From Geovibrio ferrireducens (GTDB taxonomy: Bacteria > Chrysiogenota > Deferribacteres > Deferribacterales > Geovibrionaceae), in contig NZ_JAJAPB010000005.1 of NCBI RefSeq assembly GCF_026226615.1, forward strand, positions 62,001 to 126,000: DNA of 64,000 nucleotides, given 5' to 3'. The position numbers and the translations under genes are program-made. The notes beneath the pieces were generated by a model that saw nothing but the letters and a program-made list of their open reading frames with translations, ran no database searches and was not told the DNA's origin. Position 1 is the first letter of the stretch, and every line of letters begins with the position of its first letter. Below, one piece after another: positions 32,020 through 55,036 of this stretch.

Positions 32020-33398
32020 ATTTCTCCTCCATGGCGGGAAATTATCTTTTTGGTGATGGCAAGCCCCAGCCCGGTTCCCTTGACATCGCCCTGCTGATTG
32101 CGCCCTCTTCTGTAGCGCTCAAATATGTGCGGGAGATCCGCCTCAGCTATTCCTCTTCCGTTATCCTTGACAGATACCAGAAGCAGGCGTTCATCCGTTT
32201 TTTTCACGCTGATATTTATTTCCCCGCTTTCCGCAGTATATTTCAGTGCATTGCCTATGAGGTTTTCCGCCGCACGGCCTATCATTTCAGCATCTGCGTA
32301 AACATCCGGCAGATCGTCCGGTATATCCAGTGTCACATTAATTTTTTTACCGGAAGCTATGGGTGCGGTCTTTCTGGCAATATCCCTCAGTATCAGGCCG
32401 ACTTTGCAGCGCTGCATCTCATAGGGGACATCGTTTATATCAAGCCTTGAGATCTCAATAATGCCGTTCACGGAGGCTATGAGGCGCTCTGATTCAGTAT
32501 CTATTATCTCAAGGAGCCTGCGTGAGCTTTCCGGGTCACTCTCAAACGCGCCCTCCCTGAGCATCTGCGCTGCTTCCTTAATGGATGAAAGCGGTGTTTT
32601 GAGCTCATGGGAAACATTGCTGACAAACTCCTCCTTCTGCTCTCTGCTCTCCTTAAGCCTTGCTATCATTATATTAAAGTCAGATGCGAGCCTCTCTATC
32701 TCATACGGAGCCTTGAGGGAGAACCTGTCGGGGAATCTGCCAGCTGCGACCTCATTGGTCTTTTCGCCGAGTCTTTGCAGCGGGCGCGCTATGGTGCGGG
32801 TATTAAAGAAGGCAACGGCAGCCGCGCCTAGAATACAGACAGCCATAAACAGAACCGACCTGTGCAGAACCCTCTCCACCATGCGGCTGGAGCGCTCAAG
32901 CTTACTGCGCCATTCGGAATCGGCAGTGTCTTTAAGCAGTTTTATCTGCTGGGTAAGTTTGGAGGAAATATCCTCAATTTCCCTGTTTGTTCCGGCGTAA
33001 TCACGTTCCCTGCCGCTTATCTGCGCCGCGGACATTTCGGCAAATGCGGTGTAGAGTTCGTTAACCCTGTCATAAATATCTGATTTTGATTTACCCATAA
33101 CAGTTTCGGCAAGGTGAGCGTTAACCTCGTCCGCCTCGCTTTTAAAACCGCTGAATCTGTCGAAGAAGTCTTTATCTGCCGTAACCTGATATTTCAGCCT
33201 GAACTCGTTCATTCTCAGCACAGATGCGGAAAGCTTATCCGCCGCTGCCATAACAGGAAGGTGAACGGCAGTAACCTCATGAAGAATCCTGTGAATCTGT
33301 TCGGTTTTATGAAATACGTAGATTATGAAATAAGAAATAAGCACCAGAAGGATGAGGTTTGTCAGGGCGAGCCTGCCGAATATGCCTGTCAGCTTCAT
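31956..33398 (-). CDS. Sensor histidine kinase (GlrK-like, HAMP-HisKA-HATPase)
   Basis: A 480-residue inner-membrane kinase. TM1 (about 9-29), a helical periplasmic sensor (about 30-180, four-helix-bundle type as in MCP-like sensors), TM2 (about 181-199), HAMP, the phosphoacceptor SHELKTPL (His264) and an ATPase domain with N-box ENLIGNALKY, DNGRGIAE and GTGLGLAI follow. All catalytic motifs are intact. First gene of the operon with the lipoprotein and sigma-54 regulator; divergent from the small peptide gene. Confidence 0.94.
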   Translation of the reverse strand: MKLTGIFGRLALTNLILLVLISYFIIYVFHKTEQIHRILHEVTAVHLPVMAAADKLSASVLRMNEFRLKYQVTADKDFFDRFSGFKSEADEVNAHLAETVMGKSKSDIYDRVNELYTAFAEMSAAQISGRERDYAGTNREIEDISSKLTQQIKLLKDTADSEWRSKLERSSRMVERVLHRSVLFMAVCILGAAAVAFFNTRTIARPLQRLGEKTNEVAAGRFPDRFSLKAPYEIERLASDFNIMIARLKESREQKEEFVSNVSHELKTPLSSIKEAAQMLREGAFESDPESSRRLLEIIDTESERLIASVNGIIEISRLDINDVPYEMQRCKVGLILRDIARKTAPIASGKKINVTLDIPDDLPDVYADAEMIGRAAENLIGNALKYTAESGEINISVKKTDERLLLVSVKDNGRGIAEADLPHIFERYRRGRNQQGDVKGTGLGLAITKKIISRHGGEIWANSRPGKGSEFLFTLPLSF

Positions 33399-34372: not shown

Positions 34373-35422
34373 TTAAAAAAGGTTTGTCTTATCCCCATAG
34401 CCTGCGCCGTGGTAGTGGCAGTTTGTGCAGTTGGAGTCATAGCCGCTGGGGTGTACAACCTCCTGAAGTCCGTTGCCGGTTACTGCTCCGTCAGGGCTCA
34501 TGTGGCAGAGGGCGCAGAGCTCAGTGAAGTTATTTCCCTGAACGCTCACAGGTGCGTTGAACGCATCAGAATCAGCGTCTTCCGCACTGTCGCCGGACTG
34601 GGTTATCAGGTATGAGTTGTCGGATGTATGCACATCATGGCAATGTGTGCAGCCAACTTCCATCGCTGATGTATAGGAAGCGCCGGGGCGGAACTGGCCG
34701 AATGTCTGTCCGAGGCCGTCCTTTACTCCGTGAATATCAGCAGTGAAGGTTTGCCCGGCTATGCCTCTGAATGTGTCGAATATATTTGTGAAATCACCGT
34801 CAAAAGCCAGTGAAGGCGGTGTAATGCCGAAGGCTCCGTTTCCGTCATGGCAGTTCAGGCAGAATTCCGTTTTTGTGCTGTATGCCGCCGCACCCTGTCT
34901 GAAATCTCTGGTGAGGCTGATTTTCCCATTCATATCAGTGTATTCGTGGCATATCACACAATCTGAGTTTCCTATTTTGCCGTCACTGTCAAGGTCGTGC
35001 ATAGTTGTGTGCCCCCCGAAAAGACCGGCAGAGGCAACTATGGACGGGTTGGAGTGGCAGAGAGTACACTGGTAGCTTTCCGCTGTAACATCTTTTATTC
35101 CGTTTGTTCCGTGGCAGTAGAGGCATGCGCCTATGTCACCCGCACCGACTTTTTTGAAGCTGGCAGGGAGCGCAGGGTTGTATTTGTGTATTTCATCAAG
35201 CTGCTTTGCAGGGTGGCAGAGGGAACAGTCCTTCCTTTCCCATCCGCTGTGGCTTTTGGAATCCACAAGCTGAGGTATCCCTATGGCATTTTTCTGGGCG
35301 GCAGAATTGCTGGAACTGTTGCTGCCGCAGGCTGAGGCTGAGGCCAGAATCATTAAAGAAACAATGCAGTAAATAAAAACTCTCACGGATTCACCCCGTT
35401 TTACTGTTATAGGTTTTGTCAT
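34373..35422 (-). CDS. Octahaem c-type cytochrome, probable lipoprotein
   Basis: A 349-residue cytochrome with eight CXXCH sites (CSLCH, CLYCH, CTLCH, CVICH, CLNCH, CTHCH, CALCH, CTNCH). The N-terminal signal ends ASASAC, so Cys32 may be lipidated, followed by a Ser/Asn-rich linker. A calcium-type loop HDLDSDGKIGNSD lies between haems 3 and 4. It is the last gene of the eleven-gene cytochrome operon, two bases after another cytochrome gene and close to the beta-barrel gene, so an outer-membrane or surface position is likely. Confidence 0.92.
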   Translation of the reverse strand: MTKPITVKRGESVRVFIYCIVSLMILASASACGSNSSSNSAAQKNAIGIPQLVDSKSHSGWERKDCSLCHPAKQLDEIHKYNPALPASFKKVGAGDIGACLYCHGTNGIKDVTAESYQCTLCHSNPSIVASAGLFGGHTTMHDLDSDGKIGNSDCVICHEYTDMNGKISLTRDFRQGAAAYSTKTEFCLNCHDGNGAFGITPPSLAFDGDFTNIFDTFRGIAGQTFTADIHGVKDGLGQTFGQFRPGASYTSAMEVGCTHCHDVHTSDNSYLITQSGDSAEDADSDAFNAPVSVQGNNFTELCALCHMSPDGAVTGNGLQEVVHPSGYDSNCTNCHYHGAGYGDKTNLF

Positions 35423-35424
35423 TT

Positions 35425-35994
35425 TCAGTTAGTCCTGTGGCAGTCGATGCAGAAAGATGCCTTATGGCAGCTGTCGCAGGATGCCGGATCCATCATAGCC
35501 TCAACAGAGTGCCTGAGTTTAAATGCCCTGGGGTGTCTGTAACTTTCGGCAGAATATTGTTTGCTGTGGCAGCTTTCGCAGTACCAGTCGGAGTGGCAGC
35601 TTTCGCAGCTTTTCTTATCCAGAGCAGCGGGCACGGCATGCATCTGCGTCCACTGTGTGAGGTGGTCTTCCGGCTTCATGGTTTTCAGGTTGTCATGGCA
35701 CACATAGCAGTTTTGCGGAGCGGAGACGACCTTGGTTATCTCCTCCTTGTGGCATGTGTGGCATGTGTTGTCTATCTTGAGCTCTGCGCCGATTTTGAAA
35801 TCGCTTCCTTTATTGATAAAAGTTTCTATATCGGGCAGCTTGTGGCAGTAGAAGCAGTCCTTTTTCTGTTCAAACAGAATGTTTACGTGCTGCTCATGGT
35901 TGAACTTCACATAAGGGGACTGGTAGTAAAACTTCGTACAGCCGAACAGAAGAACCGGCAGAACCAGTAAAAACCATGTCAATCGCTTATTCAT
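35425..35994 (-). CDS. Heptahaem c-type cytochrome, probable lipoprotein
   Basis: A 189-residue protein with seven CXXCH sites (CFYCH, CHTCH, CYVCH, CESCH, CESCH, CDSCH, CIDCH). Extra His residues (FNHEQHVN near the N-terminus, LRHSVEAMMD near the end) could be distal ligands, as in cytochrome c3/c7-like folds. The signal ends LLFGC (Cys19), consistent with a lipoprotein. Packed haem density (one per 27 residues) indicates a wire-like function. Lies directly after the beta-barrel gene. Confidence 0.92.
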   Translation of the reverse strand: MNKRLTWFLLVLPVLLFGCTKFYYQSPYVKFNHEQHVNILFEQKKDCFYCHKLPDIETFINKGSDFKIGAELKIDNTCHTCHKEEITKVVSAPQNCYVCHDNLKTMKPEDHLTQWTQMHAVPAALDKKSCESCHSDWYCESCHSKQYSAESYRHPRAFKLRHSVEAMMDPASCDSCHKASFCIDCHRTN

Positions 35995-36024
35995 CTATTT
36001 TCCTCAGTATATTTATATTACTTG

Positions 36025-37296
36025 TCAGAAGCTGTAAGTAGCTTTCACACCGTACCTGTTTTCGGGCAGGTAGCGGGTTTCCCTGTTGTTCTCAGCGTAA
36101 ACACCCAGAGTGAGGTCTTTTATAACGTCATACTCCAGTTCGCCGTATATGGAGTAGATAGACTCTTCCTTATCCATACCGACTGTTCCGTTTTTGATTT
36201 CAGAACGCCCCACATACTCCGCCTCAAAGGAGAATCTCAGTTCCCTGAGTATGCTCCAGTCAAGGGAGAAGCTTACGCCGTTTGCCTCTGAATCGCTGCC
36301 GTCATACAGGTACACCTCAATATTTGAGGTGAGGCCGTGGCTTTTGAAGTGGTTCACATTCGCGCCGAATTTATAGATGTCTCCCGTGACCCATTCGCCG
36401 AAATTGTTCAGGAGAACAACGTGAGTGGTTCCCTGATAAACGGTGTAGTGGTCGGTCAGGGCGTATTCCACAGTGTATGAATACCTGTCCTCCTTGCCGG
36501 AGGAGAAGTTAGATATAATAAGATTTCTATGTCTTTCTGCGCCGTCTTCAACTCTGATTCTCGTTGCGTCCGCTATGAGGCCGAGCTTTTTATGGCGGGC
36601 ATAAACCCTTGCCATACCCCTGTAAATATCGTTATCTTCCATGTCGTAGTCGATCTTGCCGTCAAGAGAAAGGAAAACCGTTTTGTCCCTGAGAGATACA
36701 AATCTCCTGCCGAGGCCGATTCCCGCAAGCTCCTGAATGGTTCTGTCGCCGTCCTCCTCCTTGGAGTAGGAAACATAGCCTGAGTAGTTTTTAACACCGT
36801 TGAGGAATATGCGTCCCCCGTAGAGCCTGTCACCAGTATCACGCAAAGTTTCATCAATATTGATTTTTCTGTCATCTGTATTGAAAAGCTGTGGTTTACC
36901 CCCGAAAGCCGTCACTCCGAAGCTCCAGTCTGTTCTGACTGTTGCTTCCGCACCGTCAAGGGTGAGAAATCTGTTTCCCATGAAGGAAAATCTGCCGAGC
37001 TTGATTTCAAGAGCCCTTTCAAAGCTGGTGAACTCAAGATAGGCCGAGTAGATGTCCGTGAAGCTTTCCCCCTCCTCCTCGGAATATGTTCCGTGGAAAT
37101 TAAAACCGAGGTAAGGATTGATAAGCTTAACATTATCAAGTATCAGCGTATTTTCCCATGTTCCTTCCGTCTTCCCCCCTTTTTCCTCGGAGCTTTCATA
37201 AGAAGTAGAGAAAGAGCCTTCAATGCCGAATGAGTGTGCACTCTGCACTGCTCCCGCTAAAAGAACAAAAATTAAAAATCCCCTTAAAAGTTTCAC
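36025..37296 (-). CDS. Outer-membrane beta-barrel, candidate porin of a porin-cytochrome complex
   Basis: A 423-residue protein with a signal peptide (about 1-22) and alternating aromatic/polar strands throughout (for example IFLNGVKNYSGYVSYSKEED), ending in a terminal Phe (GVKATYSF) as outer-membrane proteins do. No Cys or haem sites. It resembles MtrB/PioB-type barrels only in role and neighbourhood: it sits between lipoprotein cytochrome genes, as the barrel does in porin-cytochrome conduits. It is shorter than MtrB (about 670 aa). Around 18-20 strands seem likely from its length. Confidence 0.82.
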   Translation of the reverse strand: MKLLRGFLIFVLLAGAVQSAHSFGIEGSFSTSYESSEEKGGKTEGTWENTLILDNVKLINPYLGFNFHGTYSEEEGESFTDIYSAYLEFTSFERALEIKLGRFSFMGNRFLTLDGAEATVRTDWSFGVTAFGGKPQLFNTDDRKINIDETLRDTGDRLYGGRIFLNGVKNYSGYVSYSKEEDGDRTIQELAGIGLGRRFVSLRDKTVFLSLDGKIDYDMEDNDIYRGMARVYARHKKLGLIADATRIRVEDGAERHRNLIISNFSSGKEDRYSYTVEYALTDHYTVYQGTTHVVLLNNFGEWVTGDIYKFGANVNHFKSHGLTSNIEVYLYDGSDSEANGVSFSLDWSILRELRFSFEAEYVGRSEIKNGTVGMDKEESIYSIYGELEYDVIKDLTLGVYAENNRETRYLPENRYGVKATYSF

Positions 37297-37311
37297 TCTG
37301 TTCTCCTGAAA

Positions 37312-39495
37312 TTAAAATGAAGTAAGGTCGTTTATCGAGAGCTCCAGCAGTCTCGTTGCGTAACGGTAGTTATGCAGACCGAAGCTTTTATCCGAAATTA
37401 TAAAGTTGTAGTTATACGCGGCGCGGTTAAGCGCATCCGTAAGGGCAGTGTTGCCTGTTACGCTGTAAGATGCGGATATTTCACTGCCGGAAGCACGTCC
37501 CGCGAGGGTGTTTATACGCTCTTTAAGCGTGTTCATAAGTGTTCTGACACCCGCTGTTCTGCCCAGATAGTCGTATCTGCCGTCAGCATCAGCCGTGACT
37601 CCCGCATGGCATGAATCGTTGCAGTATGCGATCCTGTCGCTTCTGTTTTCGCTCATGGTCATGCTGTGGGTTTTGCCCGCATCCCTGTTCATGTGGCAGT
37701 CTGCGCAGTCAAGCAATGCTTTGTGAGCCGTGGTAAGGTTGGGAGTTTCGCCGTATGTCCAGCCGCCCTTGCCCTCAAACATCTCCGCCTGAGCGTTGTG
37801 GGGAACAGTGCCTATTCCGGCTCCGTTCGTGTTGTGGCACATGTAGCATATTTTACCGTCTCCCGCGCTGACAGTTACACTGCCGCTGTACAGCGTGAGC
37901 GTATGACTGCCGGAAACCCTAAGCTGTGCGTTGTGTCCGCCTTCCCCGTGGGGGTCATGGCAGACGTTGCAGGTGATTCCGCTGATTTTATCTGTCTTGT
38001 CGCGGGTTATATCCACGCCGAATATCATTCCGAGGGCTCCTTCTCCGCTGTGGCACTTGAAGCAGGCCTCATTTGTCACAACGATGGAGTTTGATACCGT
38101 ATGGGCATTTTCATGTGTGCTTTTGCCTGTTGAGTTATAAAACTCTGCGAAGTGGCCGCCGCTCTTGCCTGTGTCATGGCAGGTGAGGCACACACCGGAG
38201 GCGAAGGATGTTGTTTCCGGGTGTCCCATGAACCTGATAGTTCCGCTCAGGCCGCCTATATAGGTCGCTGTGGGTCCGTGGCATGCTTCACAGGTGACTC
38301 CTTTAAGATGCGCGGAGGCGGTGGAGGCATTTGTATTGACAGTCATTGTATCATCAAAACCGTAAACTGCGGGATAGTCGTCTGTTCCGTTGCCGCTTCT
38401 GTCAGCAAAGAAATTTCCTGTTCCGTGGCATACTGCGCATTCAGTGCTGTTGGCGTTGGTTACTGCGGTGTTGTATGCTCCGGCGTGGCCGCTTGCGCTC
38501 CAGACGGACTGGAGATCTCTCATTATCTCCCTGCCGTATCTGTCTTTGTACTCAGGTGCGGTTACGGAACCGTTGTGACAGAAAAGGAGGCAGTAGGACC
38601 TGTTGTTGTTTTTATCGTATGAATATCCGTAGACTTTTATTTCAAGGCTTTCGGATGCTGTTTTTATGCTTCCGGTCACTGTTGCGCTTACTGTGTAGCT
38701 GCCGAACGTGTCGGGGATGAACATGGCGCTGCTGCCTGAAATTGAGGGGGCAACCGATGAGCCGTCAGGTTTTTTCACTGTCCATACCACATTAAGTATG
38801 TCGTCCCCGAATGCGGCAGCATCTATATCCATCGCGACTTTCTCGCCGGGCTGAACATTCGAAGTTCCCCTTATTATGTCAGGGTTCTGTATATTGGAGG
38901 GATCTGTGAAGTATTCATTGTCTGCAAAAGCCTCTCTGTAGCTTTTGGAAAGGAGTTTAATGAATTTTTTTGACGATGGAATCTCAGCCGCATTCAGGTA
39001 GCCCGCAAAGAAGCTGAGCGGAATGTCGGTGGAGGCGCGTATAATCCCCGCCGCGGGTTTTGTTGAGGACTGAATAACGGCGCTGTTGTTCAGGATTGCA
39101 AGGAAAACTGTGTTGGCATCCGTAGCTGTGCCGGACAGAGTGTACGGTATGGTGACTACTGCATCATATATGGCAGCGGGGGCGGAAGAAGAGACTTCAT
39201 CTGTGAACCTGACTGAGAACACGGGTGAAAGAGCTGTATATCCGTCTTTCACATAGGCAGAATCAGTTCTTTCTATATATGCTGTTCTGCCCGCCATTGC
39301 AGGAACGCTGGCCGTAACGGAAAAGCCCTCGAAAAGCCCCGTGCCTGTATAGCTGAGCGTTCCGTCGGACGATACCGCGGCGGTGACGATTGTTCTTGTC
39401 TCTGTGTCAACGGAAGGTTTTATATGGTCACTTCCGCCGCATCCTCCGATATAAGCTGCGCTTAATATAATCAATAGGAGTCTAATAAATTTCAT
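37312..39495 (-). CDS. Large multihaem cytochrome lipoprotein (7 CXXCH plus 2 CXXXCH)
   Basis: A 727-residue lipoprotein (signal ending IGGC, Cys19). The first 300 residues are beta-rich and cytochrome-free, with Ig-like strands (GEKVAMDIDAAAFGDDILNV, YTVSATVTGSIKTASESLEI). The rest has CAVCH, CEACH, CLTCH, CFKCH, CNVCH, CYMCH and CADCH, flanked by two CXXXCH sites, CLLFCH at the start and CNDSCH at the end. Size, lipid anchor and N-terminal adhesive-like domains suggest an outer-surface terminal reductase. Precedes the barrel gene by 15 bases. Confidence 0.9.
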   Translation of the reverse strand: MKFIRLLLIILSAAYIGGCGGSDHIKPSVDTETRTIVTAAVSSDGTLSYTGTGLFEGFSVTASVPAMAGRTAYIERTDSAYVKDGYTALSPVFSVRFTDEVSSSAPAAIYDAVVTIPYTLSGTATDANTVFLAILNNSAVIQSSTKPAAGIIRASTDIPLSFFAGYLNAAEIPSSKKFIKLLSKSYREAFADNEYFTDPSNIQNPDIIRGTSNVQPGEKVAMDIDAAAFGDDILNVVWTVKKPDGSSVAPSISGSSAMFIPDTFGSYTVSATVTGSIKTASESLEIKVYGYSYDKNNNRSYCLLFCHNGSVTAPEYKDRYGREIMRDLQSVWSASGHAGAYNTAVTNANSTECAVCHGTGNFFADRSGNGTDDYPAVYGFDDTMTVNTNASTASAHLKGVTCEACHGPTATYIGGLSGTIRFMGHPETTSFASGVCLTCHDTGKSGGHFAEFYNSTGKSTHENAHTVSNSIVVTNEACFKCHSGEGALGMIFGVDITRDKTDKISGITCNVCHDPHGEGGHNAQLRVSGSHTLTLYSGSVTVSAGDGKICYMCHNTNGAGIGTVPHNAQAEMFEGKGGWTYGETPNLTTAHKALLDCADCHMNRDAGKTHSMTMSENRSDRIAYCNDSCHAGVTADADGRYDYLGRTAGVRTLMNTLKERINTLAGRASGSEISASYSVTGNTALTDALNRAAYNYNFIISDKSFGLHNYRYATRLLELSINDLTSF

Positions 39496-39514: not shown

Positions 39515-40507
39515 TCACTTGCCTTCTGCATTGTGCTTATCTGTAAGAACCTTAAGAAGTTCAGCCGTGTTTTCTTCGCTGTGGCATTTTGCGCATAGCT
39601 GCTCTTTGCTTACTTTATCCGTACTGAGCAGGAGCGGATCGTTTGAAAAGTGCGGTGTGTGGCAGTCCGCACAGTCCAGAGTTTTGTTGAACTTAGGCAT
39701 AAACACTTTATCCACAGGGTGAAACTTGATGTAGCTTTTCTGATGGTAGTTAAAGCCGAGTTCGCTTGAGGCGTGGCATCCGTCACAGAGTTCGTTCACG
39801 GGTTTCCTGAGATGGGTTTTATCCGTGGATTTGTGCGGTGAATGGCATATTGTGCAGAATCCTGCTGCGACGGGGCCGTGTACATACTGAGCGGGCTTCA
39901 TCTGTATGCTGAAATTGTTATGGCATTTGAGGCAGGTTTCGGAAAACGGCTCCTGCGGGATAAGGTTGTTGTCCTTTTCATGACACTCAAAGCATTTAGC
40001 CTGTTTAACAGGGGCGTGCACCCATGTGCCCATGAATTTGTCCCGGTGACAGTTTACACAGTCATTGAGATCCTGAAATCTGTGGCAGTTGAGACATATC
40101 TCTCTTCTGTCACTGCTGTGGAAGTTCATGTAGCCTTCGGTCCAGTCACTGATAGTGGTCGGGGAGTTAACCTTGTTTATCTGCACAGTGTTCACATCCT
40201 TTCCCTGCGAAATAACAATAGTGTTATCGCCCGGATTAAGCTTGAGAATGGTCATGAGCATATAAAAATTCTCGCCGTTCGCATTCTTCGACTCAATGAG
40301 CTTCTTGACACTTTTTACACCGTTTATCTCAATAGTTACCGGATCTTTAACCGATGACTTTCCGATGATATGTATGTCGCTGACAGACTTCACTTTATTA
40401 GTGATCGGGAAAATTATGTCCAGTTTAGCAAAAGCCTGCGGGGTGAGCAGGAAAAAGCTACTCAGAACCAATATTATAATTTTCCGGCAACCGAATCTCT
40501 TCAGCAT
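39515..40507 (-). CDS. Octahaem c-type cytochrome with N-terminal beta-domain
   Basis: About 330 residues from the ATG at 40507 (MLKRFGCRKIIILVLSSFFL), preferred over one eight codons earlier. A signal peptide is followed by an Ig-like domain of about 95 residues (LDIIFPITNKVKSVSDIHII, LKLNPGDNTIVISQG) and then eight CXXCH sites (CLNCH, CVNCH, CFECH, CLKCH, CTICH, CDGCH, CADCH, CAKCH). VHAPV/VHGPV segments before haem pairs recur and match those of the 15-haem protein at 61-62.7 kb. Overlaps the end of the upstream TPR protein gene. Probably periplasmic. Confidence 0.9.
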   Translation of the reverse strand: MLKRFGCRKIIILVLSSFFLLTPQAFAKLDIIFPITNKVKSVSDIHIIGKSSVKDPVTIEINGVKSVKKLIESKNANGENFYMLMTILKLNPGDNTIVISQGKDVNTVQINKVNSPTTISDWTEGYMNFHSSDRREICLNCHRFQDLNDCVNCHRDKFMGTWVHAPVKQAKCFECHEKDNNLIPQEPFSETCLKCHNNFSIQMKPAQYVHGPVAAGFCTICHSPHKSTDKTHLRKPVNELCDGCHASSELGFNYHQKSYIKFHPVDKVFMPKFNKTLDCADCHTPHFSNDPLLLSTDKVSKEQLCAKCHSEENTAELLKVLTDKHNAEGK

Positions 40508-41393
40508 GTGCACTGTCCCCTCGTGATTCATATATTTTTTTCAGGTAATAATTGACTTTGTTCTTATCCTCATAACGGTCTTTGACACCGTTCAGAATTT
40601 GCAGGGCTTTATCGCTGTCGCCTTTAAGGTAAGACGCTATTCCGCTGTAAAGGATACATTCTGTGCTGTCCGTGCAGGAGGAGAAAACCTCATAGGCGCG
40701 CTCAGCCGCTTTCAGACGCAGATAGGTCTGCCCCAGCAGAAGCTTGCCCTTGTCATCCAGTTCGGCGGCATTAACCTTGTCCATCTCGTGTACTGCTGCT
40801 CCAAGCTCGCCCTTTTTGGCAAGCATCAGCACCAGATTCATACGAGGAACGATTTTTTTATAGTTTTCAGCCTTTTCCGCAGCATCAATCATTTCTGCCA
40901 GTCTGGCTTCATCTGTTTTGCCTGCGAGGTAGGAGAGATACACCGGCGTAAGCGAGGCAAAACTGCCGTCCTTACCGATCACTCCGGCGGGCTTACCCTC
41001 TCTGGCAAAAACCATGTAGGGCGCATCCGCATCGGGAGCCGCCCTGTATATACAGGCCTTGCTGTCGGACTTTTCAAAAAATGAAGTGAGCGTTTTTTTA
41101 TCCGCACCGGAGACATCGGCGCAGAAGCACTTCACCCCTTCAAAACCTTTACAGTCCTTGAGGTATTCCGCAAGAATATTGAGATCGAATCTTTTGGTAT
41201 GATCAAAGAACAGCACCGCCTTTCCGCCATGGGGAGATTTAATCTCTGAAACGGCCGAAAAAACGGGCTCCGCAGCGGAAGCGGCCTGAAGCGCGCTTCC
41301 GGCATCCGCAGCATGGGCGCCGGCAGCTGAAAAAACAGCCGCTGAGAGCGCCGCAGCAAAAAAAGTGTTTCTCATAACTGAAAATGAAAGCAT
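40458..41393 (-). CDS. Periplasmic thioredoxin-like/TPR protein of the cytochrome operon
   Basis: A 311-residue exported protein (signal about 1-28). The first half has a thioredoxin-like strand order (GGKAVLFFDHTKRFDLNILA, APYMVFAREGKPAGVIGKDG) but no CXXC at the active position. The second half consists of TPR helices (MNLVLMLAKKGELGAAVHEM, LGQTYLRLKAAERAYEVFSS, ILYSGIASYLKGDSDKALQI). The same architecture recurs at 60434-61354 beside another multihaem gene. It may scaffold or assist assembly of the large cytochromes; that role is inferred. Confidence 0.8.
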   Translation of the reverse strand: MLSFSVMRNTFFAAALSAAVFSAAGAHAADAGSALQAASAAEPVFSAVSEIKSPHGGKAVLFFDHTKRFDLNILAEYLKDCKGFEGVKCFCADVSGADKKTLTSFFEKSDSKACIYRAAPDADAPYMVFAREGKPAGVIGKDGSFASLTPVYLSYLAGKTDEARLAEMIDAAEKAENYKKIVPRMNLVLMLAKKGELGAAVHEMDKVNAAELDDKGKLLLGQTYLRLKAAERAYEVFSSCTDSTECILYSGIASYLKGDSDKALQILNGVKDRYEDKNKVNYYLKKIYESRGDSAHAEEIRLPENYNIGSE

Positions 41394-44300
41394 TTACTTA
41401 CCCTGAAGTTTTTGCAGGTTCTGCTGTATAATGAACAGGTTCCTGAGCACTTCGGATTCGCCTATTTTTTTATTTCTGCCCTGTCTGTACGCCTTGTCAT
41501 GATATTTGGAGAAGAGTTCCTCCGTCAAATCGCCGTGGCATACCCTGCAGAATTTGTCTTTTACTTCAAGCTTCAGGAAACTGTCTTTATCAGTTCCGTC
41601 CACATTGTAGGCTGCCTCCGTGCTTCCCTTTTTCCAAACGTGCGGGTCGTGGCATGTCTGGCAGGTTATAGAACCTTCCGCAGATACCTTGCCGCCGTCA
41701 TCATACAGGAAAGCTTTGTACTGCTCCCTGTACGGGAATATTTTAAATATCCTGTCATGAGCGGTGACTTCCGGGATTTTTTTGTAGCCGTAGCCGTCCT
41801 TCTTATGGCAGTCGCCGCACATTTCAAACGCGAATACTGATTTTCTGCCCTGCTCAAAAGCCCACATAAGTCTGTTGTCCTTGTGGAAATTATGAGGCAT
41901 ATGGCAGACATAGCACGCGTTGGTTTCCGCTGTCTGTCTGACTTTTTCGGTCATGTAGTCCAGCTTAGCGAGGTTATGCTCCGAGTATACAACAGGTTTC
42001 TGATCCGCATGGCAGGCAAGGCACATATTGCTTTCGCCGGTGTCTCTCACCATACCCTTAACGGCCCCGTGTACATCGTGGCATGTAGAGCATACTATTT
42101 TTCCATCAAGAAGGTAAATATCAATTTCCTTTTTAAGTTTAACATTTGTCGGGTGGCTTGTTGTAATTTTTGTTTTTTCCGCCGCTTTTCCCTCACTGTG
42201 GCAGCTTTTGCAGATTTTCTCAAAATCTGTTCCCAAGGCTTTGTCAAAGAGGAAATATCCGCTGTTGTGCACCATGTGGCATGCACCGCAGGAGTTTCCT
42301 TCATCCTTTGCCTTGGCAAATTCAGATACGTGCTTCTCAAAGTTGGCAACATTGTGCTTGGACTTGGCAAAGTCCTTTTTATCGCTGTGGCAGCTCTGGC
42401 AGAAGTTGCCGTCCTTCATCAGCTCTTTGTTAAGGAAGCTGTTACGGAAGGTTCCTTCCTCGCCTTTTTTGGGGCCGTTCTGGTGAACAGTGTGGCAGCC
42501 TGAGCAGTACAGGTAATACCCGCCGTCCTTTTCTGTGAGGAACTTGCCGTATTTCTCATGTGCTTCTATCTTGCCGAGCTTGTGTCCGTCATGCACTGTT
42601 TTCTTGGACGCGGAGCCTTTTTCATTGTGGCAGACATAGCAGTAGTCGTCCTTGGTTTTGTATGCGTATTCGAGGGTCATAATATTGCCGTCGGTCTTGG
42701 CATTATGAACACTGTGGCACTGGGCGCATACGGGAGCTTCCGCCTTGTCCTTCTCCCTTATATCATGGTCTGTTCCTGCTATCTCTTTCTTGCCTTCGTG
42801 GCATGCTGAGCAGAAGTCATCGAAGTCACCGAAATCACCCCGCAGGAAATCTTTGTCTATTTTGCCTTTTTTGGAAGGCCTGTGCGGGTCGTGGCAGCTT
42901 GTGCATGTGAAGGTTTCATCGGTGAGCTTAAAGCGCTCGTCAACCTTACCCTTGGTTTTCATATTCACAGGGTGAGAGTGCGCTCCGATCACCTTCTTCT
43001 CCGCGCTTCCGCCGGGTTTGTGGCAGTCCGTGCAGCCGTCATCCTCTTTTTTGACAAGAAGACGCTTGTTGGTGCTGTTGTGCACCTTATGGCAGTCAAG
43101 GCAGCCGTTTTTCAGCTTCTCTTTACCGTGGAGAGTGTTTTCCACCATTTTCTTTTCATCATGGCAGACTATGCAGAGGGCGCCGTTTACAGCCTCCACT
43201 CTGAGGAAGTTTTTATCCTTGGAATGCACATCGTGGCAGGTGGCGCATGTTACCATTCTCTGTTTGGATTTATCGCCGCCTATTTCAGTGAAGAATTTTT
43301 TTACCTCGCCGAAAAGAGGGAGTTTTTCATATGATTTCATATCCGCCTTGATGTCCTTGCCCACCGGGTGGTTGAACATTGTGGAGGAAATGATTTTCTC
43401 CTTTGCGAACCCTTTTTCCTTATGGCAGCTCATGCATCCTTTGGTGATCATATCGTCATTAGTGTTAGGCAGAGCCAGCGACCATCCGTGGGGATCGTGG
43501 CAGCTTTCGCATGTACCTTTCTGCTGTGCGGTTTTGCCGTCCTTGGTGACGAACCCTTTCACTGTTTTCATGTCGTGCTTGGAATCAAGCACTGTTTTCT
43601 GCCTTTCGTGGCAGACAAAGCAAAGCGAGTTGTCGGTGTTGCTCCGCAGGAGCAGTGTCTCTGTCTTGGCTTTGTGGACGGAGTGGCACGTAAGGCATAT
43701 CACTTCGTTGCCTATGCCGTATGAGCCGCCCTCGGCCTTGATCTTGCTCACCTGAGTGGCATTGTCCTGCTTTATGTTAATCGGGTGGTTCAGCATGCCT
43801 TTAAGGTAGTTGTGATCCTTGTCGTCGCTTACCTTGTCAAGGTGGCATGTTGCACAGAGTTCCGAATGGTTTCTGTAGTTAATGAGGAGCTTCTCCTCTT
43901 TGGGTGAGTGCGGCGTGTGGCAGCTCTGGCAGATTACCTCGCCTTTTGCGCCGAGTTTGCCGTCAAGCTTATGTATCCTTGAAGCTATTTCATCCCTGTT
44001 TTCCTTAACAGGGCTCATGGGGTGGGTTATGCCCATTTTTGCGGAGCCTATATCCTTATGACAGGCTTTGCAAAGCTCTGAATTGGCATTTTCCATTCTT
44101 AAGAATACGCTTTTTTCAACACCCTCATCCCTTGGCGCGCCTGTTGAGTGTGCTGAGTGGCAGGTACGGCAGTCAATCTTGCCGTTGTTAAGCGGAAGAT
44201 TGCCGGGGATTGACATATGCGCGGGGATTTTATCGAGCTTGTGAACGTCACCTGTCCATATTTTAATGCGGCTGTCCCCCACTGTTCCGTTGTGGCAGGA

Positions 44301-44507
44301 GAAGCACATTCTTTCGGTGGCGACCACTTTTTCCTTCTGAAATTCGACCAGCGGCGTTCCTTTGAGGTCAAAGAGAAATTCAGGCATCCATTCATAGTGA
44401 CAAATGGAGCATTCCTTTGAGGAATCGGGGTTCAGTTTTTCTTTTTGAGCCTCTGCGCTGAAAGAGCAAAATATCAGGGCTGTGAGTAAAAACAACAGAC
44501 TTCTCAA
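41394..44507 (-). CDS. Giant 28-haem c-type cytochrome
   Basis: A 1037-residue exported protein (signal about 1-20) with 28 CXXCH sites by direct count, from CSICH to CRVCH. They come mostly in pairs with the pattern CxxCHxxHxxx..LCxxCH, e.g. CQSCHTPHSPKE then ELCATCH, and CATCHDVHSKDKNFLR then LCIVCH. The repeat HP(I/V/M)-type segments between pairs (NHPINI, NHPVGK, SHPVNM, SHPTNV) look like copies of a unit of about 75 residues. No membrane anchor or lipobox. Lys-rich. It would be a long periplasmic or exported electron wire. The final 60 residues form a haem-free helical tail. Confidence 0.95.
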   Translation of the reverse strand: MRSLLFLLTALIFCSFSAEAQKEKLNPDSSKECSICHYEWMPEFLFDLKGTPLVEFQKEKVVATERMCFSCHNGTVGDSRIKIWTGDVHKLDKIPAHMSIPGNLPLNNGKIDCRTCHSAHSTGAPRDEGVEKSVFLRMENANSELCKACHKDIGSAKMGITHPMSPVKENRDEIASRIHKLDGKLGAKGEVICQSCHTPHSPKEEKLLINYRNHSELCATCHLDKVSDDKDHNYLKGMLNHPINIKQDNATQVSKIKAEGGSYGIGNEVICLTCHSVHKAKTETLLLRSNTDNSLCFVCHERQKTVLDSKHDMKTVKGFVTKDGKTAQQKGTCESCHDPHGWSLALPNTNDDMITKGCMSCHKEKGFAKEKIISSTMFNHPVGKDIKADMKSYEKLPLFGEVKKFFTEIGGDKSKQRMVTCATCHDVHSKDKNFLRVEAVNGALCIVCHDEKKMVENTLHGKEKLKNGCLDCHKVHNSTNKRLLVKKEDDGCTDCHKPGGSAEKKVIGAHSHPVNMKTKGKVDERFKLTDETFTCTSCHDPHRPSKKGKIDKDFLRGDFGDFDDFCSACHEGKKEIAGTDHDIREKDKAEAPVCAQCHSVHNAKTDGNIMTLEYAYKTKDDYCYVCHNEKGSASKKTVHDGHKLGKIEAHEKYGKFLTEKDGGYYLYCSGCHTVHQNGPKKGEEGTFRNSFLNKELMKDGNFCQSCHSDKKDFAKSKHNVANFEKHVSEFAKAKDEGNSCGACHMVHNSGYFLFDKALGTDFEKICKSCHSEGKAAEKTKITTSHPTNVKLKKEIDIYLLDGKIVCSTCHDVHGAVKGMVRDTGESNMCLACHADQKPVVYSEHNLAKLDYMTEKVRQTAETNACYVCHMPHNFHKDNRLMWAFEQGRKSVFAFEMCGDCHKKDGYGYKKIPEVTAHDRIFKIFPYREQYKAFLYDDGGKVSAEGSITCQTCHDPHVWKKGSTEAAYNVDGTDKDSFLKLEVKDKFCRVCHGDLTEELFSKYHDKAYRQGRNKKIGESEVLRNLFIIQQNLQKLQGK

Positions 44508-45370
44508 TTTTTCTCCTTTAACTGAAAAATGAATACTGTTTTCTCAAAGGCATCCACCACGGCGAGTGTGCTTCCGGTTACCCTGATATGGGTCACGGAA
44601 CCGAATTTCAGCTTTTTGCCGTTTGTATCAGTGAGAACGCCCGCAAATTTTCCGTCTTTATCGAAATACTGTATGAGACCCGTATATCCGTCGGCAACGA
44701 GCAGCTTATCACCCTTGAGGGCTATGCCTGTGGGGCGGTAGAACTGCCCCTGATTGATACCCCAGCCGCCGATAAATTCGTAAAATTTCAGTTCCTTTGT
44801 GATTTTCTGTATTCTTGTGTTGAGAACTTCGGAAACAAGAAGATGACCTGCCTGATTGAAGGCAACGGCGTAGGGATACCAGAACTGGAGGCGCTCCTTG
44901 CCGTATTTTCCCGCACTTGCAGCTTCCTTTGCCTCAGCAAGGTCAATTTTGACTATTCTGTGGTTGTCATTATCCGCCACATAAGCATAGCCGCCGCTGA
45001 CCGCAACATCTGTCGGGTCGAAAACAGCCAGCTTTGCTGAGGAATAAACCTCAAACTTAGGGGAGAGCATGTCCAGAGAATTGCCTTTATTGTTGCAGTA
45101 AAGATAGTAGTTGCCGTTCTTGACAAAACAGTTGCCGCCTTTAAGGAATTCTTTTTTAACGGAGGAAACGGCACTGCCGTTTCTGTAGATGGTGTAGCTT
45201 CCGTTAAAGGCGTCGTATATTCCGGCTGTATCTGCTGATTCGATTACAACGTCAGCCGGAGTTGCCTGTTTTCCGGATGTGACTTTATACAGAAGGGACG
45301 CGCTGATCTCCAGCGCGTGCCCCTGTGTTATTGCCGAAAATATTATTACTACCGCAAGTAAGAGTCTCAC
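44504..45370 (-). CDS. Exported NHL-repeat beta-propeller protein
   Basis: A 288-residue protein with a signal peptide (about 1-19) and four to six NHL-like blades: FDPTDVAVSGGYAYVADNDN, HRIVKIDL, PYAVAFNQAGHLLVSEVLNT and RPTGIALKGDKLLVADGYTG. NHL proteins are common companions of multihaem cytochrome clusters in metal-reducing bacteria. No haem site. Overlaps the 28-haem gene by four bases and abuts the trihaem gene; likely a structural or docking partner. Confidence 0.88.
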   Translation of the reverse strand: MRLLLAVVIIFSAITQGHALEISASLLYKVTSGKQATPADVVIESADTAGIYDAFNGSYTIYRNGSAVSSVKKEFLKGGNCFVKNGNYYLYCNNKGNSLDMLSPKFEVYSSAKLAVFDPTDVAVSGGYAYVADNDNHRIVKIDLAEAKEAASAGKYGKERLQFWYPYAVAFNQAGHLLVSEVLNTRIQKITKELKFYEFIGGWGINQGQFYRPTGIALKGDKLLVADGYTGLIQYFDKDGKFAGVLTDTNGKKLKFGSVTHIRVTGSTLAVVDAFEKTVFIFQLKEKN

Positions 45371-46216
45371 TTAGTTTTCCTCGCTGGGTTTCAGGAAGTT
45401 CGGTATGTAAAATTCCTTATACCTGTCGATCATGCCTGCAACCTCGTTTCCGACTATCTGCGCCATCCTTCTGTCCGTGTAGCCGATCTCCCTAAGAGGA
45501 AGGTAAGCTTCGTTTACGTTGGGGTTGTGGCACTCGTTGCATTTAACTGAGTCCTCAAGCTTTGTCATGGGTCTGTGAATCACTTTCAGAGAAGCGCTCT
45601 TCGCAGCGGGAACCATTTCACCGACCTTGCTTTTGAACTCGCTGACATATTTTTTCATAGGCTCAGCGTCAAACACTCTGGGCTCTGTTCCGCCTCTTTT
45701 AAGGGGCATGAGTTTATACGGAGTGTCCTCAAGGAAGAAGCCGGGGTCTATGCTGGGCTTTTCATCTCCTGTAACCTTGTCATACCAGACATACTTATGG
45801 TCACCGGGAGTTTCGCTCTTAACGTGGCATGTTTCGCATGCCATGAAGTAAGCGTGCATATTGAGGAAAGCCCTGATCTCCTTTTTCTTGTCGTGGGGTA
45901 CGTCCCCGTGGCAGGAAACACAGAGGTTGCGGCTGTCTGTGACGCCTTTTGCCTCTGACTTGTGGAAATCATAAAGCTTGTGGATCTGGCTTATATCCTT
46001 GTACGCAAGGCCTGCGTTCTGGGCATCTACCCCTTTCAGCATTTCCTGATACAGCCTGTCCTCTTTGCTGAGGCTGTCCGCGTGGGCTTCACCGTGGGGG
46101 GTGTGATGCCATATGTGCATAACGAGTATGAACACTATATAAGTGGAGTATACAAGGAACGCTATCCCTGCCAGGCAGTATAAATATCTTACAAAAGCGG
46201 GTCTCTGCTTACTCAT
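45371..46216 (-). CDS. Membrane-anchored trihaem cytochrome c
   Basis: A 281-residue protein with one N-terminal transmembrane helix (about 11-33, YCLAGIAFLVYSTYIVFILV) and a periplasmic part with three CXXCH sites (CVSCH, CETCH, CNECH) plus several further His. It is not a typical NapC/NrfH (which have four haems). Overlaps the cytochrome b gene by eight bases, so it probably belongs to the same quinol-oxidising complex. Confidence 0.88.
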   Translation of the reverse strand: MSKQRPAFVRYLYCLAGIAFLVYSTYIVFILVMHIWHHTPHGEAHADSLSKEDRLYQEMLKGVDAQNAGLAYKDISQIHKLYDFHKSEAKGVTDSRNLCVSCHGDVPHDKKKEIRAFLNMHAYFMACETCHVKSETPGDHKYVWYDKVTGDEKPSIDPGFFLEDTPYKLMPLKRGGTEPRVFDAEPMKKYVSEFKSKVGEMVPAAKSASLKVIHRPMTKLEDSVKCNECHNPNVNEAYLPLREIGYTDRRMAQIVGNEVAGMIDRYKEFYIPNFLKPSEEN

Positions 46217-47135
46217 GGTGAGAACCTCCCCTGTTGTATTTGCCGCCGGTGGTGCTTTCCTTCATAAATTCGATCTGCTCTCTTATGAGCTCTATTTTTT
46301 CCTGATTGGTAAGCATTTCAGCTTCCCTCTCCTTATCAAGGTCAAGAAGACGTGAAGGGTCTTTCTCCACTATGCGGTTTATCCTCGCCCACTCCATGTA
46401 GTACTCATGCTTCATGAGATGCTCAGGCAGATAGCCTGTCATGAACAGAGGCGACATGGGGAACTTGTCGTAGTTAACGTGAGCGTTGTACATGTGCCAT
46501 ATGAAGATAACGCTGACGGCAAGCATAGCCTCGTCAGAGTGGGCAATGTAGCTGATGTTCACCGCCCAGCCGGGAAGGAATGTTGTAGCCCATACGGGGA
46601 ACCACAGGAAAAGACCCGTGAGGCCGAGAACGGGAATACCCCAGAACACCGCCCAGTAGTCAAACTTTTCTCTCCAGTGGAATCTCTCGTGCTTGGGCAT
46701 ATCATCGCTTATGAAGAGAGCGTATTTTATGAACGCCGCTATATCCTGCGCATCCTTCTTACGGGGGCACATGGGTGAGTAGTAGACAAAATTGCCGAAC
46801 TCGCCCCATGAGAAGGTTCCGGTTTTTTTAGCCGGTATGATGTAGTTTACTGCCATGTTCTTAAACAGGTAGTACCAGTGGTAGAAGAACTGAGCCACCA
46901 TGATAACACCGCACACCCTGTGGATGAGCCTTGTTACGTGGAGCCCGCCGAACATTTCTATCATGGGTTTTGCCCATGGGTAGAAGTGGAACTTAAGCGG
47001 GAAGCCCGTAGCCACGAGGAGTATGAACGTGACCATGATAAACAGGTGCTGAACTCTCTGGTTCTGAGTGAGTTTCAGGTAGTGTTTTTCGCCGTTTTTT
47101 ATTTTAACTAATGGTAATCCTTTCATTTCTGTCAC
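46209..47135 (-). CDS. Membrane dihaem cytochrome b, quinol-oxidising subunit
   Basis: A 308-residue integral protein of the HydC/FdnI/thiosulfate-reductase cytochrome b type. His-bearing helices include RVQHLFIMVTFILLVATGFP, LIHRVCGVIMVAQFFYHWYY and LAVSVIFIWHMYNAHVN. About five membrane helices, then a cytoplasmic tail rich in charged residues. Geobacter CbcL fuses a multihaem domain to such a b domain. Here the multihaem protein (next gene upstream) and the b protein are separate. Likely oxidises menaquinol. Confidence 0.88.
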   Translation of the reverse strand: MTEMKGLPLVKIKNGEKHYLKLTQNQRVQHLFIMVTFILLVATGFPLKFHFYPWAKPMIEMFGGLHVTRLIHRVCGVIMVAQFFYHWYYLFKNMAVNYIIPAKKTGTFSWGEFGNFVYYSPMCPRKKDAQDIAAFIKYALFISDDMPKHERFHWREKFDYWAVFWGIPVLGLTGLFLWFPVWATTFLPGWAVNISYIAHSDEAMLAVSVIFIWHMYNAHVNYDKFPMSPLFMTGYLPEHLMKHEYYMEWARINRIVEKDPSRLLDLDKEREAEMLTNQEKIELIREQIEFMKESTTGGKYNRGGSHHE

Positions 47136-52627: not shown

Positions 52628-55021
52628 ATGAACGGTTTTGACGGAATAAGCAGAAGAGACCTTCTAAAAATGGGTCTTTTTTCTTCCGCCTTAATGCTGA
52701 GCGGATCTTACAATGAGCTGTTTGCAATGACAGATAAGTCCGCTGCCGTGAAAATTCCTCACGCCACACACTTCGGCGCGCTTAAGGCTGTTGTCTCAGG
52801 CGGCAGATTCATGGGGGCGGAACCTCATGAAAATGATTACGCGCCTACCTCCATGCTTTACAGCCTGCCGGAATACGTGCACTCGCAGAACAGAATAAAA
52901 TACCCCTGCGTCAGGAAAAGCTTTCTCGCCGGGCAAAGAAACACAGCACTGAGAGGCTGCGAGGAATTTGTCCGGGTCGACTGGAAAACTGCCCTCGATC
53001 TTGTGGCTAAAATACTGAAAGATGTAAAAAACAATAACGGTAACGAATCAATATACCGCCCTTCTTTCGCCGGATGGTCACACCCCGGAGTCATAGGCAG
53101 ACCGGACATACTTCAGGGAAGGTTTCTGGGGCTTTTCGGCGGATTTACCGATACAATAGGCGATTACTCTGCCGGAGCCGCAACCCATATCCTGCCCCAT
53201 GTCATGGGCGGGTTGGAAATATACAGCTATCAGACCACCTACGAAATGATAGCAAAACACACCAAAACCATGGTGCTCTGGGGCTCTGACCCGTTCAAGA
53301 CTTTCCGCATAAGCTATTCTGTGCCCGACCATTCCAGAATTGAGTGGTTCGTTAATATGAAAAACTCCGGAATGAAGTTCATAAGCATAGACCCTGTGTA
53401 CACCGAAACGGCTAAGTTTATGGATGCCGAGTGGATTCCCATAAAGCCGAACACCGATGTGGCGATGATAATGGCGATCTGCTTTGAACTGCTCCTTAAC
53501 GGCGAATATGACAGCTCGTTCATGGATAAATATACCGTGGGCTTCGATATTTTCAAAAACTACCTCACAGGCAGAAGCGACGGAGTGCGCAAAAGCCCTG
53601 AGTGGGCAGAAAAAATATGCGGCATAAGCTCCGGAACCATAAGAAGACTTGCTACCGAGTTCCGGAAAACAGGTACTCTGCTGAACAGCCACTACGGCTG
53701 CCAGCGCGCGGACAACGGCGAGCAGTTCCACTGGGCGCTCATCACCCTTGCCTGTATGCTGGGGCATGTGGGAACTCCCGGGGGCGGATACCACTTCGGA
53801 GACGGAGGACTTGCCTATTCCGGCAAGGCTATGCCCCGCAGGATGTCACAGGGGCGAAACCCCGCCAGAACCGTGATACCCGCGTCCAGAATAGGCGAGA
53901 TGCTTCTGAACCCGGGCAGAACCATTGACTTCAACGGAAACAAGATCACCTACCCCAAGATCTCCCTGCTGCATAATATGGGCTCAAATATCATCACCCA
54001 GCACCCCAATACCAATGAACTGCTGGAAGGGATGCGCGGAGTGGAGAACATAATCACTCACGAAATAGTATGGAACGCCACGGCTAAATATGCGGACATA
54101 GTTCTGCCCGTTACCTCCACTTTTGAAAGAAATGACATAACCTACGGAGACCTCTATTCCAATACACATATATGGGCAATGAAACAGGTTGTACCGCCTC
54201 TTTTTGAATCCAGAGACGACTACTGGATACTCACTGAGCTTTCCAAACGCCTCGGTTTTGAAAAGGATTTCACCGAAGGACGCAGCCAGATGGACTGGAT
54301 ACGCTGGAGCTATTCAAATGTGGAAACCAATGTTCCTTTTGAGCAGTTCTGGAGACAGGGTTCGATAGAATTCAAAGTGCCTTCAAAAAATAAAAACTTT
54401 GTCAGGCTTGCGGATTTCCGCAAAAACCCTCAGGCTTCGCCGCTGTTCACCCCATCGGGCAAGATAGAGATCTTCTCCGAAAAAGTTGCCAGCTTCGGCT
54501 ATGACGACTGTCCGGGGCATCCCACATGGATCGAACCCAAAGAGTGGCTTGGGGCTGATCTGGCAAAAAGGCATAAGTATCACCTTCTTTCCATACACCC
54601 CAAACACAGGCTGCATTCGCAGATGGATAACATTTCCCTTAAGGAGCAGTACAAAGTGAAGGGGCGTGAACCGATTGTCATTAACCCTGATGATGCCCGT
54701 GAGCTTGGAATAAGGGAGGGCGACCTCGTTGAGGTATACAATGACAGGGGCTCGATAATCTGCGGGGCACAGGTGAGCGCCACACTGAGAAGGTTCGTTG
54801 TCAGGGTTGACGAGGGGGCATGGTACTCCCCGGAGGAGCCCTGCGGTGTCGGAGCGCGATGTGTCAGCGGCAATGTGAACGTTCTCACACCATCCAGACC
54901 GACATCAAAACTGGCTCAGGCATGTGCCGCTCACAGCTGTCTTGTGTCATTAAGAAAATTTCAGGGAAAAATTAAAAATAACGAGGCGTACAAAAATCCG
55001 GTTGTAATAACGGAAGAATAA
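52628..55021 (+). CDS. Tat-exported TMAO/biotin-sulfoxide-type molybdenum reductase (TorA/BisC-like)
   Basis: A 797-residue periplasmic Mo-bis-MGD enzyme. The twin-arginine leader is SRRDLLKMG (8-16). It lacks the N-terminal CxxC/CxxxC cluster motif, so it carries no [4Fe-4S] cluster, as in TorA, DorA and BisC. The Mo-ligand Ser is in IGDYSAGAATH. Further family text includes VLWGSDPFKTFRI, NSHYGCQRADNGEQFHW and GTPGGGYHFGDGG, and the C-terminal MGD domain with HRLHSQMDN. TMAO, DMSO or other N- or S-oxide reduction is likely; the exact substrate is not determinable. The gene follows a two-component system and precedes a monohaem cytochrome. Confidence 0.92.
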   Translation: MNGFDGISRRDLLKMGLFSSALMLSGSYNELFAMTDKSAAVKIPHATHFGALKAVVSGGRFMGAEPHENDYAPTSMLYSLPEYVHSQNRIKYPCVRKSFLAGQRNTALRGCEEFVRVDWKTALDLVAKILKDVKNNNGNESIYRPSFAGWSHPGVIGRPDILQGRFLGLFGGFTDTIGDYSAGAATHILPHVMGGLEIYSYQTTYEMIAKHTKTMVLWGSDPFKTFRISYSVPDHSRIEWFVNMKNSGMKFISIDPVYTETAKFMDAEWIPIKPNTDVAMIMAICFELLLNGEYDSSFMDKYTVGFDIFKNYLTGRSDGVRKSPEWAEKICGISSGTIRRLATEFRKTGTLLNSHYGCQRADNGEQFHWALITLACMLGHVGTPGGGYHFGDGGLAYSGKAMPRRMSQGRNPARTVIPASRIGEMLLNPGRTIDFNGNKITYPKISLLHNMGSNIITQHPNTNELLEGMRGVENIITHEIVWNATAKYADIVLPVTSTFERNDITYGDLYSNTHIWAMKQVVPPLFESRDDYWILTELSKRLGFEKDFTEGRSQMDWIRWSYSNVETNVPFEQFWRQGSIEFKVPSKNKNFVRLADFRKNPQASPLFTPSGKIEIFSEKVASFGYDDCPGHPTWIEPKEWLGADLAKRHKYHLLSIHPKHRLHSQMDNISLKEQYKVKGREPIVINPDDARELGIREGDLVEVYNDRGSIICGAQVSATLRRFVVRVDEGAWYSPEEPCGVGARCVSGNVNVLTPSRPTSKLAQACAAHSCLVSLRKFQGKIKNNEAYKNPVVITEE

Positions 55022-55036
55022 TATTAAGTAATAAAG

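Follow-up and report, generated by a model that had tools for sequence, protein, structure and literature searches.

In extracellular respiration, it is an open point whether the periplasm is crossed by loose shuttles or by a fixed wire. The closest described systems contain large multihaem cytochromes. The periplasmic cytochrome of PCC3 has a very high and variable haem count (21, 24 or 27), belongs to a porin cluster and was proposed to span the periplasm (PMC5566968, PMC10734462, PMC7096707). GSU1996 and GSU2210 of Geobacter are monomeric periplasmic chains of 12 and 27 haems, respectively, and GSU1996 is composed of repeated trihaem domains (PMC10138318). The Cbc5 system (CbcEDCBA) of Geobacter sulfurreducens unites in one complex a membrane-bound heptahaem cytochrome c, a cytochrome b of the PF01292 type and a large 'wire' cytochrome of the periplasm (PMC7726332, PMC11434368, PMC10138318). 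MtrA has 10 haems and is enclosed by a porin (PMC7198977). A 28-haem gene and its cluster have already been published for Deferribacter (FHQ18_02900-02990; DEFDS_0741-60), and the available text of these accounts holds no module, ligand or spanning analysis (PMC6896113, PMC13186404). Here, a window of 64,000 nucleotides from Geovibrio ferrireducens (assembly GCF_026226615.1, contig NZ_JAJAPB010000005.1, positions 62,001 to 126,000) was analysed, which encodes a 28-haem c-type cytochrome, MHC28. With a probability of about 60%, MHC28 would be a periplasmic haem wire leading from a menaquinol oxidase to an outer-membrane porin-cytochrome conduit.

The MHC28 gene starts with TTG. This start is supported by an AAAGGAG sequence 5 bases on its 5' side, and by the 4 bases that it shares with the stop of the upstream NHL gene. 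The frame contains 28 CXXCH sites and no CX3CH or CX4CH site. Shuffling the residues 2000 times gave a mean of 0.18 CXXCH sites and never more than 3. The 28 sites that a sequence-only reading had reported in the 1037-residue chain were confirmed. A base error in the frame or in the count is ruled out because all 15 complete orthologues from other genomes have exactly 28 sites, at identities to MHC28 from 93 down to 36%. A signal peptide is visible by eye (MRSLLFLLTALIFCSFSAEA), and no classical lipobox was recognised by eye. Past residue 30, the peak hydropathy is only 0.75 (19-residue windows, Kyte-Doolittle). Therefore, there is no membrane helix. The by-eye reading and the hydropathy agree with the previous description of a protein with a signal peptide and without a lipid anchor or membrane helix, and a periplasmic and soluble MHC28 is supported at the sequence level. 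It is the sole full copy in the 2.97 Mb genome.

The 28 sites are arranged in pairs. The first motif of a pair is CXXCHxxH, and the second motif has its distal histidine further downstream. This histidine follows the second motif at a distance of 15–19 residues in each of the seven odd pairs and of 11–12 residues in each of the seven even pairs, and the two ranges are disjoint. Profile scores among the 14 pairs averaged 56 within a class and 35 between classes (p 0.00065, 20,000 relabellings). The pairs alternate between two types. Therefore, the true repeat unit of MHC28 is four haems, present seven times behind an N-terminal cap. The repeating pairs with CxxCHxxH noticed previously are real, but the unit is the tetrahaem module made of two pair types and not the pair. 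The same four-haem period was found outside the phylum, where motif gaps of about 38, 30, 52 and 42 residues repeat in G313, G135, G275 and G219. Haem 1 is without HxxH, unlike all of the other odd haems. As a candidate, His/Met ligation of haem 1 through Met41 was considered. This residue is invariant in 17/17 in-phylum rows, but it is replaced by other residues in other phyla, and Met41 is no more than a possible ligand.

In a tree built with the units of five species, a single clade holds the odd units 5 to 13 (support 100/99). The units tend to cluster by position and not by species, in a tree with few columns and many weak forks. A recent tandem duplication in Deferribacterales was rejected because adjacent modules are only 30–42% identical and the units group by position. 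Since the count is also fixed at 28, the amplification in this lineage must be old. Thus the proposal of repeat amplification holds for the family as a whole and fails as a recent event here.

A profile search was carried out over 384 genomes, 50 in the phylum and 334 outside it, and 115 matched at E 0.001 or better. In a search within the phylum, 24 of the 50 genomes (the own genome included) had some match, and 18 matched at E below 1e-180. The 17 of these other than the own genome comprise the 15 with a complete gene and two with an incomplete one: L013 runs into a contig end and retains 27 motifs, and L019 is missing its first 600 residues and retains 11. Two fragments from the same order, L021 (5 motifs) and L022 (3 motifs), were left out of the orthologue counts, as were L001, L002 and L003, which duplicate L005, L006 and the window copy. 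There are 36 histidines outside the motifs. Twenty-six of them occur in 16/16 aligned rows, H1003 occurs in 15/16 (the missing row is the contig-cut one), and the other nine vary. Therefore, the 26 invariant histidines and H1003 provide 27 distal ligands, one each for haems 2–28. Even at 36% identity, the distances between the motifs stay almost the same, chiefly in the N-terminal half. Judged from these alignments, MHC28 is an old and fixed gene in its order. G025 (L042, 8599 onward) carries MHC28 minus the first 600 residues, with the core genes gone and the outer-membrane genes kept, so that the inner half has been lost naturally.

MHC28 is the last gene of a five-gene core (octahaem cytochrome, cytochrome b, trihaem cytochrome, NHL propeller, MHC28) within a run of 11 genes from 48199 down to 34373, whose intergenic gaps are from –74 to +30 bases (Table 1). 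Of 15 other Deferribacterota regions, 13 preserve the order of the core. The two exceptions are G026, where the contig is cut in the first gene, and G025, where the core was lost. In the b561-type protein, His30, His72, His199, His214 and His219 are invariant in 16/16 aligned rows. Outside the phylum, most of the matches are short ones that stem from the widespread doubled motif; 20 loci drawn from 17 genomes were examined, with G157 (E 1.3e-20) left out. All five core homologues lie within 20 kb in nine of these loci (G313, G219, G135a, G207, G275a, G346, G059, G100 and G242), and four of the five in two further loci (G358 and G196). A single chain of 922–924 amino acids fuses the octahaem, cytochrome b and trihaem parts in G242 and G100. 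Partial fusions join octahaem with cytochrome b (G358), cytochrome b with trihaem (G219), and octahaem with trihaem (G135b and G275b). These various fusions suggest that the three membrane subunits belong to one complex.

Table 1. MHC28 and the other genes of its run, with window coordinates.
Feature	Coordinates	Strand	Remarks
octahaem cytochrome c, C-terminal membrane helix	47144..48199	minus	first core gene; 6 CXXCH, 1 CX3CH, 1 CX4CH; hydropathy peak at 318
cytochrome b561-type membrane protein, likely quinol site	46209..47135	minus	PF01292
trihaem cytochrome c, N-terminal membrane helix	45371..46216	minus	from motif count and hydropathy
NHL beta-propeller protein, possible dock or scaffold	44504..45370	minus	overlaps MHC28 start by 4 bases
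MHC28, 28-haem periplasmic cytochrome c	41394..44507	minus	1037 residues; signal peptide, N-cap pair, 7 tetrahaem modules
periplasmic TPR-like protein	40458..41393	minus	directly 3' of MHC28, gap 0
octahaem c-type cytochrome	39515..40531	minus	doubled-CXXCH motifs
multihaem cytochrome, likely outer-surface	37312..39495	minus	lipobox IGGC (by eye); 7 CXXCH, 2 CX3CH
likely beta-barrel porin	36025..37296	minus	signal peptide, no Cys, C-terminal Phe
heptahaem lipoprotein	35425..35994	minus	lipobox LFGC; homologue also adjoins the core in G059 and G207
octahaem lipoprotein	34373..35422	minus	lipobox ASAC

In the family of the window, the core is followed by the TPR-like protein, the octahaem cytochrome, a lipobox cytochrome, the porin-like protein and two lipoprotein cytochromes. 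The porin candidate has an alternating hydrophobicity of 5.4 per 100 amino acids, where two controls gave 1.0 and 1.5. The genes after the core are different in G010, G011, G012, G013 and G015, which represent three other families. There, a 15-haem protein, a TPR-like protein, an octahaem cytochrome, an NHL protein and a two-component system come first, and then three small cytochromes, a protein of 793–819 amino acids, a PPIC-type isomerase, an NHL protein and a 9- to 11-haem protein. The domain calls for this set were made on G012. By gene content alone, and likened by description, the set resembles the Uet complex (PMC10734462). G037 has a shorter porin set directly after the core. To judge from these gene orders, the outer-membrane part is exchangeable, Pcc-like in the window and Uet-like in Deferribacter-type genomes.

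The large cytochromes with the same cap outside the phylum have 18 (G100 and G242), 24 (G207 and G346), 28 (G059 and G313), 30 (G358 and G196), 34 (G135a and G275a) or 38 motifs (G219, G135b and G275b). When G059 was aligned with G346 of the same family, one long gap of 136 residues faced exactly four motifs, and three gaps of 9–16 residues were free of motifs. Between G059 and G207, the difference of four motifs is scattered over several gaps. The steps are not always fours, for 18, 30, 34 and 38 require one extra pair. The Deferribacterota copies fall together in the N-cap tree (support 88/89). The branches of this tree are long and many of its forks are open, and it was used solely for this grouping. 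Large cytochromes without the core genes, with 42 motifs in G078, G243 and G058 and with 37 and 26 in G224, were not counted as members. As a side observation, G135b (L071) and G275b (L074) encode chains of 2429 and 2545 amino acids beside the octahaem–trihaem fusion, each with 38 motifs and long stretches without haem, and no cytochrome b match was seen beside these chains at the two loci. In addition, the 42-motif cytochromes of G078 (L084), G243 (L085) and G058 (L087) belong to other phyla and occur with the core absent, and a gene for 292–298 amino acids behind the cytochrome in G078 and G243 recalls PCC3.

In the wire scheme, menaquinol would be oxidised at the b561-type subunit, and the electrons would cross the eleven c-haems of the octahaem and trihaem membrane subunits to MHC28, which the NHL propeller possibly holds in place. 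The electrons would then travel along the MHC28 chain to a porin-cytochrome conduit in the outer membrane, the product of the genes that follow MHC28, and reach an acceptor outside the cell. We infer that the haems are loaded, that the flow has this direction, that MHC28 touches both membranes simultaneously as a fixed wire and not as a shuttle, and that an outside acceptor is used; this acceptor would be Fe(III), elemental sulfur or another one. About 27 haems are needed for a periplasm of about 200 Å (PMC7096707), and the distance from haem 1 to haem 10 of MtrA is 80 Å (PMC7198977). Scaled from MtrA, the 28 haems of MHC28 would extend about 240 Å, which is arithmetic and not a measured length. 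By this published arithmetic the length fits the periplasm, as anticipated by the sequence-only reading that the protein could span or fill it. This fit, the conserved haem sites, ligands and motif spacing, the conserved core with its fused subunits, and the near-gapless 11-gene run containing a porin-like protein and three lipobox cytochromes favour the wire.

Several results weigh against the wire. A full-length AlphaFold2 model of MHC28 from 17 sequences was poor (predicted local distance difference test (pLDDT) 52.5, predicted template modelling score (pTM) 0.32). The structure prediction recommended previously thus gave no usable shape for the full chain, and an extended MHC28 is putative. 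MtrA appeared as the top Foldseek match (E 0.016) of this poor model, and it was not taken as evidence. A two-module, octahaem piece was modelled better (pLDDT 73.8, pTM 0.70) on an alignment of non-overlapping module windows, and it had no Foldseek match at E under 0.001. No distal ligand could be assigned to haem 1. The same core occurs elsewhere with 18 or 24 motifs, too few for 200 Å unless other cytochromes bridge the rest. Besides, Deferribacter desulfuricans has the cluster and does not reduce iron (PMC6896113). On the acceptor, Desulfurobacterium thermolithotrophum is a sulfur reducer (PMC3368423).

MHC28 may instead serve only as the partner of the quinol oxidase. It would accept electrons at the inner membrane. 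Other cytochromes of the periplasm, such as the octahaem protein here and the 15-haem protein of Deferribacter-type genomes, would carry them on to the outer membrane. The core travels with differing outer-membrane modules, so that MHC28 may not touch them. Moreover, of the 13 regions with an intact core, 12 have a further soluble-looking multihaem gene after it; in G037, the porin genes come directly. However, the haem number is far above the need of a docking subunit and the length suits the periplasm, and we regard this role as possible but doubtful. Somewhat further from the evidence is an electron store or capacitor, in which the 28 haems buffer electrons when the outside acceptor is absent and small shuttles fill and empty it, so that both membranes need not be touched. 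Such a role was proposed for the 12-haem GSU1996 (PMC10138318) and raised for PCC3 (PMC10734462). A store needs no exactly fixed count, yet every complete orthologue has the same 28 sites, and the MHC28 gene is tied to quinol-oxidase genes. A store is thus rather unlikely.

The chain could also run inward, with metal, minerals or a partner cell as the electron source, as was proposed for the related quinol module CbcBA in Seep-SRB2 (PMC10553843). The relatives with known physiology are anaerobes reducing Fe(III), sulfur or nitrate (PMC6896113, PMC3368423, PMC4245776), which makes an inward flow improbable. Export as a filament, an idea of the sequence-only reading, is the least credible and we consider it very improbable for a protein of the OmcS/OmcE/OmcZ kind. 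Among 9 chains taken into the Z-score structure comparison, OmcE gave Z 5.8 with the two-module model (119 residues, root-mean-square deviation 3.6), and short profile matches to OmcE (7tfs) and OmcS were also found. However, the likeness is weak, since the tool rates Z under 8 as common by chance, and an operon with inner- and outer-membrane electron-transfer proteins is the context of an envelope-crossing chain. In addition, known cytochrome filaments are polymers of small chains, which counts against a filament.

If MHC28 is a wire, it may also be a modular one. The number of tetrahaem modules would set the length, tuned to the periplasm width or to the gap that other cytochromes leave, and the wire would be a hard-wired link from the quinol oxidase to exchangeable conduits in several phyla. 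We advance this extension tentatively, with more doubt than confidence. If true, electrons in these bacteria would cross the periplasm on a single molecule instead of being shuttled. With its count held at 28 in one order and ranging from 18 to 38 elsewhere on the same core, the family offers a natural test of the wire idea.

The cluster of Deferribacter, whose third gene encodes a cytochrome b561, resembles the order in G010–G013, and its 28-haem protein most likely belongs to the same family as MHC28. Its outer-membrane genes differ from those of the window. For D. autotrophicus, the available text reports no Mtr or Omc homologues (PMC6896113). That the outer-membrane part can be exchanged may be a reason why the system escapes searches for Mtr or Omc genes. 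In the open-access literature searched, no account was found of the tetrahaem period, the length ladder, the core of five genes and its fused forms, or the outer-membrane exchange.

In gene content, the window has a porin-like gene, lipobox multihaem cytochromes and a high-haem cytochrome in one cluster, as PCC3 does. MHC28 and the large PCC3 cytochromes were compared by description and not by sequence. The inner-membrane partner of PCC3 has about 300 amino acids and two HX13H motifs (PMC5566968). In its place there are an octahaem cytochrome, a PF01292 protein and a trihaem cytochrome here, and the b-type protein has one HX13H. A membrane multihaem cytochrome c, a PF01292 cytochrome b and a large periplasmic cytochrome share one operon, as in Cbc5, whose large cytochrome CbcC/OmcQ has 12 haems against 28 here; the two systems are likened by content and not by sequence. 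Unlike the trihaem domain of GSU1996, the module of MHC28 holds four haems. The previous remark that such haem numbers are uncommon stands in part, given the 27-haem Geobacter protein (PMC10138318) and PCC3 cytochromes with up to 85 haems (PMC5566968).

The best sequence match of MHC28 in PDB is to the MtrA/DmsE family (6r2q_A, E 1.5e-16). Seven stretches of MHC28 match TIGR03508. The score of MHC28 is 160.5 bits, below the cut-off of 192.2, and with 28 motifs rather than ten MHC28 falls outside this family; nor does it resemble MtrA in haem number or porin enclosure. Chain A of 6r2q is labelled 'Cystathionine beta-synthase' in the sequence table although the entry title is that of the Mtr complex, and this molecule name is probably wrong.

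The genes at 34373–39495 have the content of the outer-membrane part of Pcc, with the porin predicted from sequence features. In the Pcc clusters of Denitrovibrio acetiphilus and Desulfurobacterium thermolithotrophum, porin-cytochrome genes lie beside an octahaem membrane cytochrome (PMC4245776). The octahaem Dester_0351 has six CX2CH and two atypical motifs (PMC4245776), and the first core gene here agrees with this pattern. A unit of b-type, trihaem, NHL and 28-haem genes does not appear in the available text of that account (PMC4245776).

Genes for a sensor kinase, a small protein and a response regulator lie downstream of the operon (30060–33398, minus strand; from the list of open reading frames). 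A related kinase–regulator pair sits inside the cluster in G010–G013 and G015. The kinase and regulator genes of the window may control the operon. Frames with 11 to 15 haems lie beyond the cluster on the opposite strand in G018, G019 and G021. In the window, a frame of 450 amino acids at 61364–62716 (minus strand) contains 13 CXXCH, one CX3CH and one CX4CH, and it is the strongest doubled-CXXCH match of the genome. On the plus strand, two molybdopterin oxidoreductase-like proteins of 797 and 864 amino acids with twin-arginine-like leaders are encoded at 52628–58356, as judged by eye from the same list.

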